This document shows, piece after piece, positions 7,869 to 62,944 of a stretch of DNA of 64,000 nucleotides. The notes below the pieces were generated by a model. That model had not been told where the DNA came from and did not search any database. It saw only the letters and a program-made list of their open reading frames with translations. The stretch is from the NCBI GenBank assembly GCA_016928915.1, contig JAFGJT010000017.1, positions 62,001 to 126,000 of the forward strand. The letters run 5' to 3'. Source of the stretch: Candidatus Peregrinibacteria bacterium (GTDB taxonomy: Bacteria; Patescibacteriota; Gracilibacteria; UBA1369; PNNO01). Numbering within the stretch: the first letter of the stretch is position 1; each line of letters starts with the position of its first letter. Made by a program: the position numbers and the translations under genes.

Positions 7869-8990
7869 TTAGACAGTTTCGCTGCTTTCGTCCAGCTTAT
7901 TAAAAAGTTTAACTGCTTCTTGTGCGCTTTTTTCCCATGAAAATTTTTGACACTGCTCAAGTCCCCGCCGAGTTAGTTCTTTTTTTAAATCAGAATTTTT
8001 TAACAATTTTGTTATTGCTTCGGTCAATTCTTTTTCTTTTTTGGGATTGATTTTAATCGCTGCATCACCTGCAACTTCCGGCAGAGAAGATGTGTTTGAA
8101 GTGATCACCGGGCAGCCGCATTTCATGGCTTCAAGAGGAGGAATTCCAAACCCCTCATAAAGTGAAGGATAAACAAAAATTTCCGCGAGATTGTATAATT
8201 TAATTAATTCTTCCTCAGTGACATAGCCCAAAAATTTAACCTTATCTTCAAGTTTTAACTCTTCCGCTGTTGTAAAAATTTCATCATAATACCAGCCTTT
8301 TGATCCTGCAATTATAAGTTTATAATCCGGGAATTCTTTTAAAATTTGTGCAAAACATCGTATAAGCATTGTAAAATTCTTTCGCGGTTCAAGTGTCCCC
8401 GCCGCAAAAATAAATTTTTCCGGTAGATTGTTTTTACGCTTAAAATCTTTCAATTCCTCATGCGGCATTACCTTGAAATTATTTGATGCTGCGTTATGAA
8501 CAATCGACACCAATTCATTCGGAATAAAGAACTGAGTAATCAAATCCCGCTTCGTATTGAGCGAAACCGCAAAAACACGGGATGCTTTTCCAAGAGCTTT
8601 TTTTAAGAACACTCTTTCGGTAAACAGCGCTTTCTTATTGTGGATTTCGGGGAACAGAAACGCAACAAGATCATGAACGGTCATAACAACCTTTATTTTT
8701 TGCGGATTATGCAATGCGGGAATAATATAGCTCGTGGGCGAAAAAAACACCTGTACGTTTTCTTTATAAGAATGTTTTAGAACCGCAAGATGCCATAAAA
8801 AACTTTTTTTTGTAATAATTTTTACTAAAACATTCGGGTGGCTTTCAAATTCGTGCACAGGTTTTGAAGTATATAAAACATACTGATTTTCTTTGTCTTG
8901 TTTTAAAATTTCGCTTACAAGATGATATGCGTAATATCCTTTTCCCGCACGCTTCCCGAGGGCTTCCCTGAAATCAATTCCTATTAACAT
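7869..8990 (-). CDS. glycosyltransferase family 4 (GT-B fold); ORF track start 9014, MLIGIDFREALG start at 8990 preferred
   Basis: TLEPRKNFTMLIRCF, VYPSLYEGFGIPPLEAMKCGCPVITSNTSSLPEVAGDAA. Confidence 0.9.
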   Translation of the reverse strand: MLIGIDFREALGKRAGKGYYAYHLVSEILKQDKENQYVLYTSKPVHEFESHPNVLVKIITKKSFLWHLAVLKHSYKENVQVFFSPTSYIIPALHNPQKIKVVMTVHDLVAFLFPEIHNKKALFTERVFLKKALGKASRVFAVSLNTKRDLITQFFIPNELVSIVHNAASNNFKVMPHEELKDFKRKNNLPEKFIFAAGTLEPRKNFTMLIRCFAQILKEFPDYKLIIAGSKGWYYDEIFTTAEELKLEDKVKFLGYVTEEELIKLYNLAEIFVYPSLYEGFGIPPLEAMKCGCPVITSNTSSLPEVAGDAAIKINPKKEKELTEAITKLLKNSDLKKELTRRGLEQCQKFSWEKSAQEAVKLFNKLDESSETV

Positions 8991-9009
8991 AATGATTGTT
9001 TTGTTACAG

Positions 9010-9053
9010 CTCAATTGTCAATTGTCAAATGTCAAATGTCAATTGTCAATTGT
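9010..9053. repeat. short heptanucleotide tandem repeat (GTCAATT/GTCAAAT, ~6 units)
   Basis: tcaattgtcaattgtcaaatgtcaaatgtcaattgtcaattgt. Confidence 0.85.
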
Positions 9054-9098
9054 GAACTTTACAATTCTTTACTACGTGTTATTCTTTAAAGTGTTTTA

Positions 9099-18233: not shown

Positions 18234-20060
18234 ATGACAAACAAGTTAGACCGATGGATTGAGGAAAAGCTTCAAGATACGGCATCCCCAAAACACATCA
18301 TCACGCCTTCAAAAAGCGTGAAAAATATGCCGTATCGCAAAAAAAACCACCATAACAACCGGCACAACCGCAATTTCAGACCACAACGTCAAAACGAAGG
18401 GGTTAAAATTATTCCTTTCGGCGGTTTGGATGAAGTTGGGAAGAATATGATGGCCATAGAATACCGTGGCGATATTATTATTATCGATATGGGTTTTCAG
18501 TTTCCCGAAGAGGATATGCTGGGCATTGATTATGTAATCCCTGATATCAGTTATCTGGAAAAAAATATTCATAAAATAAGAGGGGTAATAATTACGCACG
18601 GGCATCTTGACCACACGGGAGCAATACCATATATACTGCCAAGGCTAAATTTTCCAAAACTTTATGCCACTAAACTGACCATGGGTCTGATTCAAAAAAG
18701 AATTGAGGAGTTTGGTATACAAAAGGATACGATTATGAGGGTTGTCAACCCTGACGACACTCTTAAACTTGGCGCTTTTACATGCAGTTTCTTTCGTGTC
18801 AACCATAGCATCCCCGACGGCGTTGGCGTCATAGTAGACACACCCCATGGAACAATTGTCCACTCCGGTGATTTCAAGTTCGATCCAACCCCGGCTGACC
18901 AAAAGCAGGCTGATTATGACAGGATTGCCGATCTTGGGCATAAGAAAAAGGCAACAATTTTATTTTCAGATTCAACAAACGCCCTAAAACCTGGAAGAAC
19001 CATGTCCGAAAAAACAATCGGAGAAACGCTGGATAAAATAATCGGGCTAACACCCGGACGTATAATAATCGCTTCTTTTTCTTCATTAATTGGACGAATT
19101 CAACAGATACTGGCATCCGCGGAAAAATGGAAAAGAAAAGTTTTCGTTAGCGGCAGAAGTCTTGTTGATAATATGGCAATTGCCGAAAAACTGGGGTATT
19201 TAAAGATTAAACCCGGTTTAATTCATGATATAAGGCATGCTGAAAAATCTCCCCCCAAAGACGCGCTTATCCTGACAACAGGAAGCCAGGGTGAATCGGT
19301 TTCAGCATTAACCCGTATTTCACTAAACGATCATAAAGATATTAAAATCCGCAAAGGGGATACGGTAATAATTTCCGCAACTCCCATTGTGGGCAACGAA
19401 AGAGCTATTTTCACGGTTATAGACAATCTTTCAAAGCTGGGGGCAAAGGTAATTTACAATAAAATAATGGATGTTCATACATCGGGACATGGTTATCAGG
19501 AAGACCTTAAAATGATGCTTGATTTTGTAAGGCCGGGTTATTTTGCGCCCATACACGGACAGTATCATATGAGGGCCGCGCACGCTGATCTGGCTCTTGA
19601 GGTTGGTGTTGACCCGCGAAACATATTCATGATCAATAACGGAGATATTCTTGAGATGAGGCAGGGCAGAGTTACTGTTGCAAAAGAAAAAGTTGAAACA
19701 AATTATATTCTTGTTGACGGTCTGGGAATGGGAGACATAGGCTCAAGAACAATATTCGAAAGGCAAATACTGGCTGAAAACGGAGTGCTGGTTGTAGGGT
19801 TAAAGATCCATAAAAAAACAAAACAGCTTTTAGGCCCCATACATATTGAAGCTCACGGTTTTGTGTATCTTGATGAATCGGATGAAGTATTAAAGGAACT
19901 TATAAGCCACGCAAAAAAACATTATGAAAAATTGCTGCAGAAGCATCAAAAACCCGGAATCCGCAATATTAAAGATTATATGATTAAGGCTTTGGATAAA
20001 GAAACGCATAAACTGATTGAAAGAAGACCGCTTATCGTGCCGGTGATAACGGAAGTGTAG
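18234..20060 (+). CDS. rnj: ribonuclease J
   Basis: IPFGGLDEVGKNMMAIEY, ITHGHLDHTGAIPYIL, HTSGHGYQEDLKMML, FAPIHGQYHMR. Confidence 0.95.
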   Translation: MTNKLDRWIEEKLQDTASPKHIITPSKSVKNMPYRKKNHHNNRHNRNFRPQRQNEGVKIIPFGGLDEVGKNMMAIEYRGDIIIIDMGFQFPEEDMLGIDYVIPDISYLEKNIHKIRGVIITHGHLDHTGAIPYILPRLNFPKLYATKLTMGLIQKRIEEFGIQKDTIMRVVNPDDTLKLGAFTCSFFRVNHSIPDGVGVIVDTPHGTIVHSGDFKFDPTPADQKQADYDRIADLGHKKKATILFSDSTNALKPGRTMSEKTIGETLDKIIGLTPGRIIIASFSSLIGRIQQILASAEKWKRKVFVSGRSLVDNMAIAEKLGYLKIKPGLIHDIRHAEKSPPKDALILTTGSQGESVSALTRISLNDHKDIKIRKGDTVIISATPIVGNERAIFTVIDNLSKLGAKVIYNKIMDVHTSGHGYQEDLKMMLDFVRPGYFAPIHGQYHMRAAHADLALEVGVDPRNIFMINNGDILEMRQGRVTVAKEKVETNYILVDGLGMGDIGSRTIFERQILAENGVLVVGLKIHKKTKQLLGPIHIEAHGFVYLDESDEVLKELISHAKKHYEKLLQKHQKPGIRNIKDYMIKALDKETHKLIERRPLIVPVITEV

Positions 20061-20080: not shown

Positions 20081-20137
20081 CGAAACCGCACCCTTTAAAA
20101 TGTAGGGGCGCTCTCGTACCCCCGCTAAGCGGGGGTA
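20081..20137 (-). repeat. tRNA-trailing double-hairpin module (copy behind tRNA-Tyr)
   Basis: minus strand TACCCCCGCTTAGCGGGGGTACGAGAGCGCCCCTACATTTTAAAGGGTGCGGTTTCG. Confidence 0.7.
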
Positions 20138-20224
20138 TGGTGGGCAGGGAGGGAATTGAACCCCCGCAGGCATAAAGCCGCCAGATTTACAGTCTGGTGC
20201 GATTGACCACTCCGCCACCTGCCC
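20138..20224 (-). tRNA. tRNA-Tyr (GTA), CCA encoded
   Basis: type II cloverleaf; anticodon loop CTGTAAA; ...CTGCCCACCA 3' end. Confidence 0.93.
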
Positions 20225-22470: not shown

Positions 22471-22547
22471 CGGGGCATAGCGTAGTTGGCTAGCGCGCCT
22501 GCTTTGGGAGCAGGAGGTCGCAGGTTCAAATCCTGCTGCCCCGACCA
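22471..22547 (+). tRNA. tRNA-Pro (TGG), CCA encoded
   Basis: cggggcatagcgtagttggctagcgcgcctgctttgggagcaggaggtcgcaggttcaaatcctgctgccccgacca. Confidence 0.95.
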
Positions 22548-22606
22548 TATAGCCCGCTTAGCGGGGTACTAGAGCGCCCCTGCCTTTTAAAGGGCGCGGT
22601 TTTTGC
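22548..22606 (+). repeat. tRNA-trailing double-hairpin module (copy behind tRNA-Pro)
   Basis: TATAGCCCGCTTAGCGGGGTACTAGAGCGCCCCTGCCTTTTAAAGGGCGCGGTTTTTGC. Confidence 0.75.
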
Positions 22607-29986: not shown

Positions 29987-30062
29987 GGCGACGTGGCCAA
30001 GTGGCTAAGGCAGCGGTTTGCAAAACCGTTATTCGTGGGTTCGATTCCCACCGTCGCCTCCA
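29987..30062 (+). tRNA. tRNA-Cys (GCA), CCA encoded
   Basis: ggcgacgtggccaagtggctaaggcagcggtttgcaaaaccgttattcgtgggttcgattcccaccgtcgcctcca. Confidence 0.95.
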
Positions 30063-30114
30063 ATAGCTCCGCCAAGCGGAGCTAAAAGCGGCCCCGTGCA
30101 TTTTAAGGGCCGCG
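30063..30114 (+). repeat. tRNA-trailing double-hairpin module (copy behind tRNA-Cys)
   Basis: ATAGCTCCGCCAAGCGGAGCTAAAAGCGGCCCCGTGCATTTTAAGGGCCGC. Confidence 0.75.
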
Positions 30115-30132
30115 AAGAATTTCTTTCTTCAT

Positions 30133-30209
30133 GTGCCTGTAGCTCAGCTGGATAGAGCGCAGCCCTGCGGAGGCTGAGGTCGTGGGTTCAAATCCCGCCA
30201 GGCACACCA
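30133..30209 (+). tRNA. tRNA-Arg (GCG), CCA encoded
   Basis: gtgcctgtagctcagctggatagagcgcagccctgcggaggctgaggtcgtgggttcaaatcccgccaggcacacca; anticodon loop CTGCGGA. Confidence 0.93.
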
Positions 30210-30305
30210 TATGCCCCGCGAAGCGGGGCATATCGCGCCCCGGCATTTTATAGGGCGCGATAAAATAAAAAAGCGGCTCCGGCATTTTATAGGGCGCGAT
30301 AAATT
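30210..30305 (+). repeat. tRNA-trailing double-hairpin module (copy behind tRNA-Arg) with a partial tandem duplicate
   Basis: ATGCCCCGCGAAGCGGGGCAT, TCGCGCCCCGGCATTTTATAGGGCGCGA, then CCGGCATTTTATAGGGCGCGATAAA again. Confidence 0.8.
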
Positions 30306-36003: not shown

Positions 36004-36057
36004 TTTTATATTGAAATAAAGCCGATTTTTCGCTAATTTACATATTGCTCGCGGTTT
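36004..36057 (+). repeat. right copy of ~55 bp imperfect direct repeat flanking the HNH ORF
   Basis: ttttatattgaaataaagccgatttttcgctaatttacatattgctcgcggttt. Confidence 0.8.
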
Positions 36058-36074
36058 ACCGGCGGTTTGCCGCG

Positions 36075-36215
36075 GTCAAAAGTCAAACGTCAAAGGTCAA
36101 AGGTCAAACGTCAAAGGTCAAAGGTCAAAAGTCAAATGTCAAAGGTCAACTGTCAAAGGTCAAAAGTCAAATGTCAAAGGTCAACTGTCAAAGGTCAAAC
36201 GTCAAAGGTCAAACG
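36075..36215. repeat. heptanucleotide tandem repeat GTCAAAN (~20 units)
   Basis: gtcaaaagtcaaacgtcaaaggtcaaaggtcaaacgtcaaagg... strict 7-nt period. Confidence 0.95.
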
Positions 36216-36223
36216 TGCCACTC

Positions 36224-36298
36224 GGCCTCATCGTCTAGCGGCTAGGACATCGCCCTCTCACGGCGAAAACAGGGGTTCAATTCCCCTTGGGGCTACCA
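36224..36298 (+). tRNA. tRNA-Glu (CTC), CCA encoded
   Basis: ggcctcatcgtctagcggctaggacatcgccctctcacggcgaaaacaggggttcaattccccttggggctacca. Confidence 0.92.
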
Positions 36299-36300
36299 AA

Positions 36301-36370
36301 TAGCTGCTTCTTAGCAGCTAATGAGGCGGCATGGAGCCGCCGGTCTTGTATTCAAAGGGCCGCGGTTTTT
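36301..36370 (+). repeat. tRNA-trailing hairpin module (divergent copy behind tRNA-Glu)
   Basis: AGCTGC-TTCTTA-GCAGCT, GGCGGC-ATGGA-GCCGCC, ...TTCAAAGGGCCGCGGTTTTT. Confidence 0.6.
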
Positions 36371-36858
36371 AGCCGGACTTGGAAATCATTACTTTGGAAA
36401 CTTTGTTCTCAAAATGCACAGCAAAAAGATAGCAAATTTGAGAGCACCCATAAATCCATTAGTCCATCCAATCAATTCCCTTAAAACACCTTTCTTTTCT
36501 GTCAATCTGATTTTTGAAACATTTGCACGTAAAATCTGTTTTTTTTAATGAATTCTGATGAAACCGCTGATCTGATGATTTGGCTTTAACAGTAAAGAAA
36601 AAACAGCCGAACCGGATGCCGAAACAACTAAGATTAGGCAGTGATTTTCCCGCTTAAGGTATGCAAAAACAGGCTGTTAAATAAAGTTGACGCAATCTCT
36701 TCATTTGATTAAAATTCTTTTGAATATCGTGAATGTAGCTGAAAATAGCGAAAAATAGCAATAAATCAGGTGCTCTCGTATAGAGCGCATTATGTAGTTG
36801 AGTGCCAAAAATCATACGGAAAAAATTTATATAAAGCTCATTGAAAATCAGGCAAAGG

Positions 36859-36977
36859 TATATGCGGCAAACATATGCCCAATGAATTGTTCGTGCGGCA
36901 AACACGTACAATAGAACCCGTCTTCGGGTTCATTTCCCTGAATTTAAAGCATAATATACGTGAGGCAATCACGTGTA
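36859..36977 (+). other. cluster of small hairpins with shared GGCAA loop upstream of the S-layer-like gene
   Basis: ATATG-CGGCAAA-CATAT; CGTG-CGGCAAA-CACG; ATACGTG-AGGCAAT-CACGTGT; plus GAACCCG-TCTT-CGGGTTC. Confidence 0.5.
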
Positions 36978-37020
36978 TTAAAAGCTGTTTAAAGTTTAGC
37001 AATTTGTTATCCCCGTTCGT

Positions 37021-37127: not shown

Positions 37128-40100
37128 ATGGATCTATCTTTGCGATCTATTCGCAGAAGCGTCTCCATTATGGGGATTGTTGGCATCCTGGCAAGCATGT
37201 TTGTAACAGCAAGTGTTGCAAATGCTGCTTGGCCTTTTCCGGATGTTCCAGCAGGCTCATATTTTGAAGACCCAGTTGAAGAAGCTGTCACTCTAAATGT
37301 AGTTGACGGCACACAGGCATATTTCCGACCAGCGGATTATGCCAACAGAGGAGAAATGTTTAAAATGATAGCCGCTTCAGTAGGTTTGACAGCGTCTACA
37401 TGCGACGAATCATTATTCCCGGATGTAAGCGCCGACGACTGGTCATGCGGCTGGTTTACAACCCTTTACAATGAGGGAATTGTAACCGGCGACGGCCCCA
37501 CATCACCAACTCCGGGATATGGGCGACCAAATGATCCGATTAACCGCGCTGAAGTAGCAAAAGTAATCACTCTTGTAAACGAGCTTACTGCTGATGCAGG
37601 AACACTCGGTTCAGATTACTTCACCGATGTTGCTGTCGGCTCTTGGTTTGATGAATACGTAGGTGTTGCCAGATACAACTGTGTTGTACTCGGCAAAACA
37701 GATACAACATTCGCACCGGAAGTAAACATCACTCGTGCAGAAGGCGTTACAATGGTAATAAGGGCTCTTCATCCCACAACGGAATGCGGACCGGTAGTAG
37801 CTGAAGGCGCTTTGACCGTTGCATTGGACGGATCAAGCCCGGATGCTGTATTTATCCCACAGAACGGGGCGAATATCCCTTACTCAGTATTTGCTTTCAC
37901 GGCATCTGCTGAAGAGGATATTAATGTTGAACAGTTGATAATCACTCGTTTAGGCTTAGGTCGTCCAGGTGATTTCAAAAACTTAAAGATTTATGTTGAT
38001 GGTGTTCAGTTAGGTGGAGAAAAAACTATCAACACTTCAACAAACTCTGCTACTTTTAATTTAACAAGTACTCCAATAGTTGTTCCTGCAGGTAAAACCG
38101 TATTGGTTGAAGTGCGCGCTGATATGAACGGCGTTACCGGTTCACAGAACCAACTTTGTGTAAATATGCCGGAAGATGTAACTGCAATGGGTGATGCTTC
38201 AAACGCTGAAGTTGCGGTAGGCGGTTCATTCGCAGTTTGCGGCGAGTTAATGAGCACAACTTCTGCAAATGTTGGAACATTAACATATACCGTTACTCAG
38301 CCATCTGTAGCTGATATTAATGTCGGTGATACCGATGTTATTTTCACAAAAGTTAAGATGGATATGATAACTGAAGATGTTAATGTAAACAGAATTACCT
38401 TTAAACAGGTGGGAAGCGCAGATCCTGAAGTATTTGGAAATGTTTCTTTATGGATGTCAGGATCTCTTTATTCTAGCAATGTTTCATGGGTAGGAGATTT
38501 CGTTACATTTGACCTGGAAGATGCTCCAATCTTTATTGCTAAAGGAAATTCAAAATCTGTTGAATTACATGCTGATGTATTAGGAGGATTAGCTTCTACG
38601 GCAGGTTTCGACATCTATCGTGACTGGCACATTGAAGGAACAGGAACTGTATACGGCTACGGCGTTAATGTCGTAGAGGATACAGTAACACCTTCAATCA
38701 CTCCGGTTTCAAGAAATATCATTGGCGGCAATGTTGCATTCTCGCTTTCTGCTAACAACCCTGTAACAGGTGATGTTAAAAAAGGCGCTAATGATCACGA
38801 ATTCACAAAATTCAATATCTCTACAGGTGGAGACGGTGTAAGCGTTAGAAAAATTTCTTTGGATGTAAACGGAACAAACTGGAATGACATCACAGATATT
38901 AAAATTTGGGCTAAGAATAAAACCGGCACATGGTATGTTGTTGCTGGACCATCCAACCCAACAGGTGCTTTGACGGAAACCATGCGATTTACTGATACAT
39001 TTGATATTCTTGCTGCAACAACTCAGGAATTCATGGTAACCGCTGACATTGCTAACGCTGCTACAGCAGGTGATGTCTATGATATAGATGTTTCTGATGT
39101 AAATGTTGCCGCAAACGTAGAACTTGAATATTTATCAGACGGCACGCCAATCAATGTTCTTACCGATGTTACAGGCGGTATGCTAAATGGTAATGTTATG
39201 ACAGTTAGAACCCCTAATGTTGATGTTACATTAGCAGCAACTCCTGGACCAAAATCTTATGTAAGAAATACACTTGATAAGGATCTTGTTGCATTTGACT
39301 TTAAAGCTTCAACTGCAGACGATATCCGCATCACAGGTATTACGTTGACTTGTGCTGATACATCTGAAGTTGTTGATTTGGTTGATAACGACGGTGACGG
39401 ATTTATAGATGAAGTATCAAGTTGTCATACAGCTTTCACTTCATTGGATCTTTTTGAAAAAGACGGATCAACATTAACTCTGCTTAAGAGTGGTGTTGCT
39501 ATGACAAACGGCGGCACAAACGATACAGCTACATTTAGTTTGAACTATGTTGTACCAAAAGGAACAACAGCAAGACTACTTGTAAGATCAGATATCTTAA
39601 GCGGTGCAGTTGGTGATGATTACTTGTTCGCCATTTTAGCCGGTGGAGTTACAGCTGAAGATTCTGATTCTTCCGCTGCAACAGTTAGCTTGCTTCCAAC
39701 TCTTGCAAACACAATCACCGTTGCTCCACAGGGCAATTCATCTGTTCAAAGCGTTACAGATTCTTCATTACAGGCAAGAATCGTTGCAGGTCTTTCAGTT
39801 GACCAGAATGTTCTAAAAGTTAAATTCTCAGCTGATGAACTTGAAGCTTGGTACATTAAGGATTTGAACTTCGACCTGGCTGCAGGTGTTGACGCCGATG
39901 TTACAAGATTAAAAGTAAGATATCTTGACAACCTTGGCGCAACTCAGACAGCAACCGGAACAGTTTCCGGTGGAACAGTTCAGTTCACAGGATTGAACAT
40001 TTATGTTCCTGCAGGCAGTTCACAGACTGTAGATATCCTTCTTGATATGGGAGATGTAGCAACCGGAGGCGCTGTCGCCGGTGACTTAGTACAGGTAACT

Positions 40101-61681: not shown

Positions 61682-62944
61682 ATGTCGCTTGAACATAATA
61701 ACCAACCGGAAGCTGTAGAAAACGAATCAATCTTTTTGGTTGACGACCCTGAATTTAAGAATTGTATAGAGGAGGCGTTACAGGAAACAGATTACGAACT
61801 TATGATCAGGACTGATCAAAAATATGGAGATGAGAATGATTACTGGGGAAGAAGAAACGATGAGATCACTTTAACCATTGCAAAAGCCATTTTTAAGAAT
61901 GATAAAACAAGGCGTCAGGTTTTTCCTGATACGATTAAAACCGAAGAAGAGTTGGAAGATTATTTGGTAAAAGACGGAAGGAATCAAAGATTACTTGATA
62001 AATATATTCATCTGACGCTCGCCGTCTCTTTACAGTCAAAAAATAAACATAAAAAATATTTGTATGATTATATAGGGAAAAGAATCGGGAATATGCTTAA
62101 ATCCCGATTAACTAAACTTATTGAAATATTTATCAAACCTCAAACGGAACTAAGCACGGAAGAAATTAATATCAAACAAAAAATAATTGAAGTTGACTGG
62201 GCGCCTATGTTAAAACTTGTCCTTATACAGCATTTACATCAACTGGATTGTTATAAGCTGTTTAAAAGTTTTGTTTTGCGAGATATAAAATCCGATGATG
62301 ATGAAAAGGCTCAACAAGAGATACAGGATATGATAGAAATTGTTTTTAAGTATCCCGAAATTCAACAAGCCATTCAAGAATTAATGTCAAAAATTACAGA
62401 ATACCAAAGTATAATCAAAGCGCAGAACCATACAAATAATAGTGAGTATAAAAAAGCAAAAACACCGGAACCTGTAACAGCGGTTGCGCTTGCGGCCCCT
62501 CTGGACCAAACTACTGATAGTCAACCTGAAAGTGAAGGGCATGGCCGAAAAAGACGAATTACAATTAAAGGTTTTCCGCAGAAAATGCCGCAAATACTCA
62601 CCGGTAGAGAAGTTGAAGAAGTTTTTGACGGCCCGCGTAAGAATTTTAGTCCCGATGCCACAAACGAGAATCCCTTGGTTAACGAACCGCAGCCGTTGCC
62701 GGCCCCGGCAGCAGAAATACCAGAAGCTGTTGAATTGGTTGGAGATGAGGATTTTGAAGAAGAGCCAACGGAACAAAGAGGTTCCTTAAGTTCTGCTTTA
62801 AATGGAAATCTTATTATTAAGGCGGATAAATCAGTTCCTTCGGAAGCAGCGGAAGAGAAAGAAGAAAAAAACAAATTTCCAATAGAGAATTATATAAAAA
62901 TCCTCTGGCTGTTACGGCATGGGTTCTTGCTGCTGTTGCAGTAG
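61682..62944 (+). CDS. uncharacterised protein, 5' part of an apparently frameshifted large gene
   Basis: MSLEHNNQPEAVENESIFL...; ends in out-of-frame ILWLLRHGFLLLLQ* while a TM segment continues in the -1 frame. Confidence 0.7.
   Translation: MSLEHNNQPEAVENESIFLVDDPEFKNCIEEALQETDYELMIRTDQKYGDENDYWGRRNDEITLTIAKAIFKNDKTRRQVFPDTIKTEEELEDYLVKDGRNQRLLDKYIHLTLAVSLQSKNKHKKYLYDYIGKRIGNMLKSRLTKLIEIFIKPQTELSTEEINIKQKIIEVDWAPMLKLVLIQHLHQLDCYKLFKSFVLRDIKSDDDEKAQQEIQDMIEIVFKYPEIQQAIQELMSKITEYQSIIKAQNHTNNSEYKKAKTPEPVTAVALAAPLDQTTDSQPESEGHGRKRRITIKGFPQKMPQILTGREVEEVFDGPRKNFSPDATNENPLVNEPQPLPAPAAEIPEAVELVGDEDFEEEPTEQRGSLSSALNGNLIIKADKSVPSEAAEEKEEKNKFPIENYIKILWLLRHGFLLLLQ

Follow-up and report, generated by a model that had tools for sequence, protein, structure and literature searches.

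REP-like double stem-loops flush with the 3' ends of tRNA and protein genes in a Candidatus Peregrinibacteria genome

What kind of element follows the encoded CCA of several tRNA genes in this genome, where two successive hairpins recur behind tRNAs of different identity? The window, i.e., the whole stretch of 64,000 nucleotides analysed here, corresponds to positions 62001–126000 of contig C1 in a 1.13-Mb genome of 20 contigs that is 95.6% complete. ARAGORN places eight tRNA genes within the window, at the positions given by the first-pass annotation; the genome holds 42 in total. That annotation had described one common layout behind tRNA-Pro, -Tyr, -Cys and -Arg(GCG), with a more divergent version behind tRNA-Glu, and had considered a tRNA-specific terminator or processing element, a 3'-trailer ncRNA or a repeat family homing to tRNA 3' ends as its source. 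The trailers of the first four tRNAs read as described: the encoded CCA is followed by a short-loop hairpin 1, then by 2–5 nt and a GC-rich hairpin 2 with the loop YTGCATTTTAAA. Over the window, only the eight tRNAs match Rfam families at gathering score, and the modules match none.

Behind tRNA-Pro(TGG), whose gene with its encoded CCA occupies 22471–22547 on the plus strand, the module spans 22548–22603 on the same strand; hairpin 1 lies at ~22550–22568 and the core of hairpin 2 at ~22575–22598, followed by GGTTTTTGC. The module was folded and scores 64.1 bits with the covariance model R1. The tRNA-Tyr(GTA) gene (20138–20224, minus strand) is followed by a module at 20081–20137, also on the minus strand (52.8 bits, fold z-score −6.2), with hairpin 1 at 20137–20117 and the hairpin 2 core at ~20111–20088. 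An RNase J-like gene at 18234–20060 of the window is convergent with this module. The module after tRNA-Cys(GCA) (gene at 29987–30062, plus strand) extends over 30063–30119 on the plus strand (55.8 bits, z-score −4.7) and sits inside a tRNA operon, since tRNA-Arg(GCG) (30133–30209, plus strand) starts only 13 nt beyond the end of the model match. The latter tRNA carries its own plus-strand module at 30210–30264 (53.1 bits, z-score −4.6), to which an extra tandem copy of hairpin 2, GCGGCTCCGGCATTTTATAGGGCGC, is appended at 30266–30303 on the same strand; this copy scores 23.6 bits with R1 and constitutes the direct repeat D4, which is 92% identical to the first copy.

These four complete modules reach 53–64 bits with R1 (E 2e-15 to 2e-12) in a search run with filters off; the scores are not independent, because the training set of R1 included the same copies, and independent support comes instead from the other genomic copies and from the near-absence of matches in other genomes. 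The near-identity claimed for the Pro and Tyr modules holds, as they are 86% identical, whereas no two shuffled modules exceed 74%. Likewise, tRNA-Lys is followed by an ordinary terminator and tRNA-Arg(CCT) by nothing comparable, as had been stated. The divergent copy after tRNA-Glu(CTC) (gene at 36224–36298, plus strand), delimited by sequence and fold at 36299–36370 on the plus strand, stood in part: its hairpin 1 is good (36301–36320), while hairpin 2 is rearranged (GGCGGCATGGAGCCGCC and the stem that follows), and the whole reaches only 10.7 bits with R1, at an E value of ~8 genome-wide. Other repeats and stem-loops occur in this neighborhood. A 7-nt unit (GTCAAAN) is tandemly repeated directly upstream of tRNA-Glu, at 36053–36220 of the window, and also at 8988–9071; the S13 gene (L096) is preceded by a comparable stretch. 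The leader of an S-layer-like gene at 37128 contains several stem-loops at 36850–36990 of the window (TATGCGGCAAACATA, CGTGCGGCAAACACG, GAACCCGTCTTCGGGTTC and CACGTGAGGCAATCACGTG), one of which is a weak R1 match of 17 bits.

The trailers of all 42 tRNA genes were read, and the genome was scanned with covariance models built from the copies, R1 and later R2. At E ≤ 0.01, R2 gives 26 matches, and the first S13 copy, absent as a separate R2 row, was confirmed on its own, which brings the family to ~27 copies. By this model, 17 copies stand behind 14 of the 42 tRNAs: Leu-caa, Glu-ttc, Ser-gga, Ala-cgc, Ser-tga, Pro-tgg, Cys, Tyr, Thr-cgt, Pro-cgg and Met have one each, and Arg-tct, Arg-tcg and Arg-gcg have two, the second of Arg-gcg being the hairpin 2 only. 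The remaining 10 copies follow nine protein genes, i.e., those for S12, S14, S13 (two copies), S11, L17, secY, ftsZ, dnaN and a small membrane protein of 120 residues; five of these nine hosts encode ribosomal proteins, the names having been given on inspection of protein sequence and operon order rather than by a family search. The double-hairpin family is not tRNA-specific, and that part of the first-pass annotation has to be given up in favor of its repeat-family option. Further divergent versions were recognized by eye behind Leu-cag, Leu-gag and Glu-ctc, and a hairpin-1-like stem alone behind Asp, Ser-gct, Gly-tcc, Asn and Val-tac.

The placement of the copies is narrow. At every site except dnaN, where a weak copy lies at +32, the first copy begins close to the CCA or the stop codon, at −5 to +2 nt, the only other departures being the second copies of tandem pairs, and all copies are in the sense orientation. 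Hairpin 1 of the S12, S11 and L17 copies includes the TAG stop codon within its 5' arm. Judged by spacing and strand, no fewer than seven sites fall within operons: tRNA-Cys/tRNA-Arg, S12/S7, S14/S8, S13/S11, S11/S4, L17/next gene and secY/adk. The S13/S11 interval holds two modules in tandem within a spacer of 160 nt, and the module-free spacers of the same ribosomal-protein cluster are mostly 2–25 nt long.

Both stems are variable in sequence yet keep their pairing through two-sided changes, while the hairpin 2 loop YTGCATTTTAAA is conserved. In alignment A3, which comprises 24 copies and, having been fitted to the structure, favors it, the fraction of paired cells over both helices is 85.4%; shuffles give 77.9%, and slid controls never exceed 51%. 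In A3, 20 cells carry a change on both sides, compared with 6.7 for shuffles and no more than 9 for any slid control; pairs with a two-sided change number six, and one slid control is higher, with seven. Hairpin 1 is the most variable part (AGCCC/GGGCT, ACCCC/GGGGT, ATCCC/GGGAT and AGCTCCGC/GCGGAGCT), and the stems of hairpin 2 alternate among GCGGCC, GCGCCC and CCGCCC. When seven modules were folded, five gave z-scores of −3.8 to −6.2, Glu-ctc gave −3.6 and Pro −0.65, the last value showing that the fold energy of a single copy is not decisive alone.

The similarity among copies exceeds chance and is nearly confined to this genome. Mean identity is 0.709 over 20 modules, compared with 0.564 for dinucleotide shuffles, and strict flush hairpins stand behind 15 of the 42 tRNAs, against a shuffle mean of 0.38 and a maximum of 3. 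Among the trailers examined in four genomes of the same family, such hairpins follow 1 of 37, 0 of 31, 1 of 25 and 1 of 8 tRNAs. Searches with R2 over partly overlapping sets of 99, 353 and 380 genomes, with stricter filters under which weak matches are lost, returned a single match outside this genome. One match in several hundred other genomes argues for a likeness beyond that of unrelated GC-rich terminators, and for an expansion in this lineage. In partial samples of tRNA trailers from three other genomes of the order, no repeated module was seen.

The sole outside match lies behind tRNA-Asp in a same-family genome of a different genus (G003, locus L098). Its hairpin 1 is nearly identical to the hairpin 1 behind tRNA-Asp in the present genome (GTAGACCTCTCG..CGAGAGGTCCGTCTTT), and its hairpin 2 is followed by GGTCTTTTTT, i.e., it forms a canonical terminator with a true U-tract. 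This arrangement suggests that the module family may have grown from a tRNA terminator, with the L098 locus as a possible ancestor. In four same-family genomes, the S13–S11 spacer is insert-free and measures 20–24 nt, compared with 160 nt here; these short empty spacers are too diverged to fix the insertion point by which MITE hallmarks (TIR, target-site duplication) are judged. Two genomes of the order have other stem-loops in the same spacer: in G010 (L209), three tandem stem-loop repeats of ~45 nt, CAGCACGGAGCCGAAAGGCGTAGTGC, follow right after the S13 stop codon, and in G023 (L216), a different hairpin pair, AGACCGTAGCGTAGCGAAGGTCT and ACGGGCTGAGCCCGT, is flush with it. Lineage-specific hairpins may have evolved repeatedly behind ribosomal-protein genes. 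In the same-family genome G004 (L167, L168 and L121), several tRNAs also have flush hairpins of another type behind them, and the Arg-tct and Lys-ttt trailers both contain GTCACGAGCGTAAGCGAGTGAC.

The modules have likely spread by copying between loci, as judged from their sequences, because unlinked loci have common sub-types and because tandem arrays occur. Copies with common hairpin types at unlinked loci are 88% identical for Ala-cgc and Ser-gga and 90% for S12 and S14, the latter two lying ~30 kb apart on contig C12, and the Glu-ttc and Arg-gcg modules belong to a common sub-type. Tandem arrays with similar AT-rich linkers are found at Arg-tct, Arg-tcg and S13. The genome contains two RAYT-like Y1 transposase genes (L196 and L197), whose flanks carry repeats of the CCATCGGGTGGT and ATTACTCGGTAAT types; they have flanking palindromes of their own, ATTACTCGGTAAT and ACCATCGGGTGGT. 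A search of the flanks of both genes with R2 gave no module, and mobilization by these two resident transposases is rejected, as their flanks carry other repeats; no mobilizing enzyme was identified for the modules. A phage or plasmid origin is likewise rejected, since the Pro module gave no blastn match and the hairpin 2 pattern no match in viral contigs. Among GTDB genomes, from which the own or near genomes were possibly excluded, this pattern matched once, in a Dehalococcoidia MAG, and the match proved to be an unrelated ordinary terminator.

We propose, with a confidence that we would put at about even, that the modules are REP-like double stem-loops that spread by copying to RNA 3' ends and serve there to block exonucleases or to mark a processing boundary. 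They would constitute lineage-specific, dispersed, transcribed repeats that, in one genome, were copied to sites at the immediate 3' end of tRNA genes and translation-related protein genes. In the RNA, hairpin 1 would abut the mature 3' end, i.e., the CCA or the stop codon, with hairpin 2 following after 2–5 nt. Stable stem-loops impede PNPase, while RNase R passes them; PNPase was found in the genome, and no RNB-domain RNase R/II was, which in a 95.6% complete assembly may mean a missed gene. A stable boundary of this kind could halt 3'-to-5' exonucleases such as PNPase and could separate and stabilize the single RNAs cut from polycistronic transcripts, the flush double hairpin guarding the upstream RNA after a downstream cut or termination. 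The modules might thereby mark off one cistron from the next in operons of ribosomal-protein and of tRNA genes. At the tRNA hosts, a hairpin flush with the CCA would hinder exonucleolytic trimming, so that these tRNAs would still need an endonucleolytic cut at the CCA. Since many tRNAs have no module, it is dispensable for tRNA maturation generally.

The alternative that comes nearest is that the modules are purely selfish REP- or MITE-like palindromes without host function, for which gene ends are the least harmful or the transposition-preferred place; we regard this as possible, if somewhat unlikely. The burst restricted to one lineage, with its single outside match, the tandem arrays at Arg-tct, Arg-tcg and S13 and the near-identical copies at unlinked loci would all be expected of such elements, and GTAG REPs elsewhere, as described in passages of PMC3733652, also lie close to the 3' ends of ORFs and often supply a TAG stop. 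However, no significant copy was found in antisense or in ordinary intergenic DNA away from gene 3' ends, the window has no module at any of the 54 CDS ends examined, and ribosomal-protein genes make up most of the protein hosts. The pairing kept in both helices and the different repeats at the flanks of the RAYT-like genes also speak against a purely selfish origin.

An intrinsic terminator family, amplified by gene conversion or duplication, in which hairpin 2 and a TCTTGCATTTT tail terminate transcription, would account for the T-rich tails of the Met, Pro and Ala-cgc copies and for the canonical terminator at L098, from whose like hairpin 2 might descend. On sequence grounds, the modules nevertheless do not appear to be ordinary terminators, and the operon-internal position of at least seven sites together with the scarcity of U-tracts makes a plain terminator unlikely: only 3 of 24 copies have at least five T within the 8 nt that follow hairpin 2, and the other 21 have fewer. 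Neither the U-tract after the stem nor the location at a transcript end, by which intrinsic terminators are defined, characterizes the family. Were the operon-internal copies, including the tandem pair between S13 and S11, complete terminators, the next gene would be silenced, most clearly at tRNA-Cys, where the 13 nt before tRNA-Arg would not accommodate a promoter. Moreover, the ftsZ copy has a separate classical terminator ~20 nt further on, and a conserved loop in hairpin 2 is not expected of terminators.

Two readings give the conserved loop a recognition role. It is rather doubtful that one trans-acting RNase or RNA-binding protein reads the double hairpin, including its GCATTTTAAA loop, and coordinates the maturation and stability of translation-machinery RNAs in a reduced genome without RNase R/II. 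A shared regulatory element through which a trans-acting factor co-regulates tRNA and ribosomal-protein output is very improbable: the loop is conserved and the copies are concentrated at translation genes, but ftsZ, dnaN and the small membrane protein are hosts as well, the long loop is missing in the Met, Thr-cgt, Arg-tcg and Pro-cgg copies, and there is no candidate factor. An attenuator-like switch, with the 3' arm of hairpin 1 paired to the 5' arm of hairpin 2 and the GCATTTT loop serving as the U-tract of the resulting terminator, is rejected as scarcely credible: a terminator scan did flag alternative hairpins at 22563–22580 and 30224–30242, but the alternative helix pairs in 77.9% of cells against 76.6% in shuffles, with covariation no better than in shuffles, and G-rich and C-rich arms would pair in any case.

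The proposed exonuclease barrier or processing boundary bears on a wider subject, as the making of tRNA and mRNA 3' ends is largely obscure in reduced, mostly uncultured bacteria, in which flush repeats offer a countable marker. The modules would also exemplify a way in which a terminator-like stem-loop may become dispersed over a genome and perhaps acquire a use, and would extend the REP concept to tRNA trailers.

Several known hairpin families invite comparison, and a literature search of open-access scope found no description of this particular one. Intrinsic terminators, including those built from uptake-signal repeats, are likewise GC-rich hairpins behind genes and sometimes have a repeated sequence; the modules differ in their few U-tracts, their operon-internal sites and a core motif that is not over-represented elsewhere. 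An uptake-signal (DUS/USS) repeat is rejected accordingly: CATTTTAAAGGG with at most one mismatch occurs 27 times and its reversed control 21 times, and the excess is about the modules' own contribution. In Methanopyrus kandleri, about half of the tRNA genes have a palindromic motif ~10 bp further downstream, proposed as a maturation signal in the account of PMC5217627; this motif, too, is a lineage-specific hairpin family at tRNA 3' ends. A hairpin at a fixed distance behind many tRNAs is equally present here (14 of 42 by the model, 15 of 42 by strict flush position); however, the archaeal palindrome is single, of different sequence and set 10 bp off, whereas the modules are flush, and protein-gene copies, which the modules have, are unmentioned in the passages of PMC5217627 concerned. 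The double-hairpin and repetitive hairpin-forming elements of mitochondria are dispersed, intergenic and also found beside tRNA genes, with suggested roles in mobility or RNA processing (PMC2800124, in part, for sponges); unlike the modules, they belong to another genome type, have another sequence and also occur within genes.

In passages of PMC3733652, the GTAG and CGTC REPs are described, like the modules, as short GC-rich stem-loops in tens of copies that are probably transcribed, and often as heterodimers and tandem groups. The ~27 short extragenic palindromic copies near gene 3' ends agree with this description. Two defining features differ: the modules start mostly with ATAG, ATAC, ATAT or ATGC, paired with the 3' arm, so that TAG lies within the stem rather than in an unpaired GTAG or CGTC tag, and no RAYT gene is flanked by the same repeat. 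It is because both fail that we call the modules REP-like and not REPs. Their main sites, tRNA 3' ends and ribosomal-protein operons, also set them apart, tRNA 3' ends being unmentioned in the REP passages concerned. REPs of E. coli within 15 nt of a stop codon have been reported to stall ribosomes and lower translation (work cited in part of PMC12306157), and they resemble the modules as structured repeats near a stop codon; unlike them, most modules lie behind tRNAs, a setting that rules out translation as the target. The modules are unusual in placement, yet of a known general kind.
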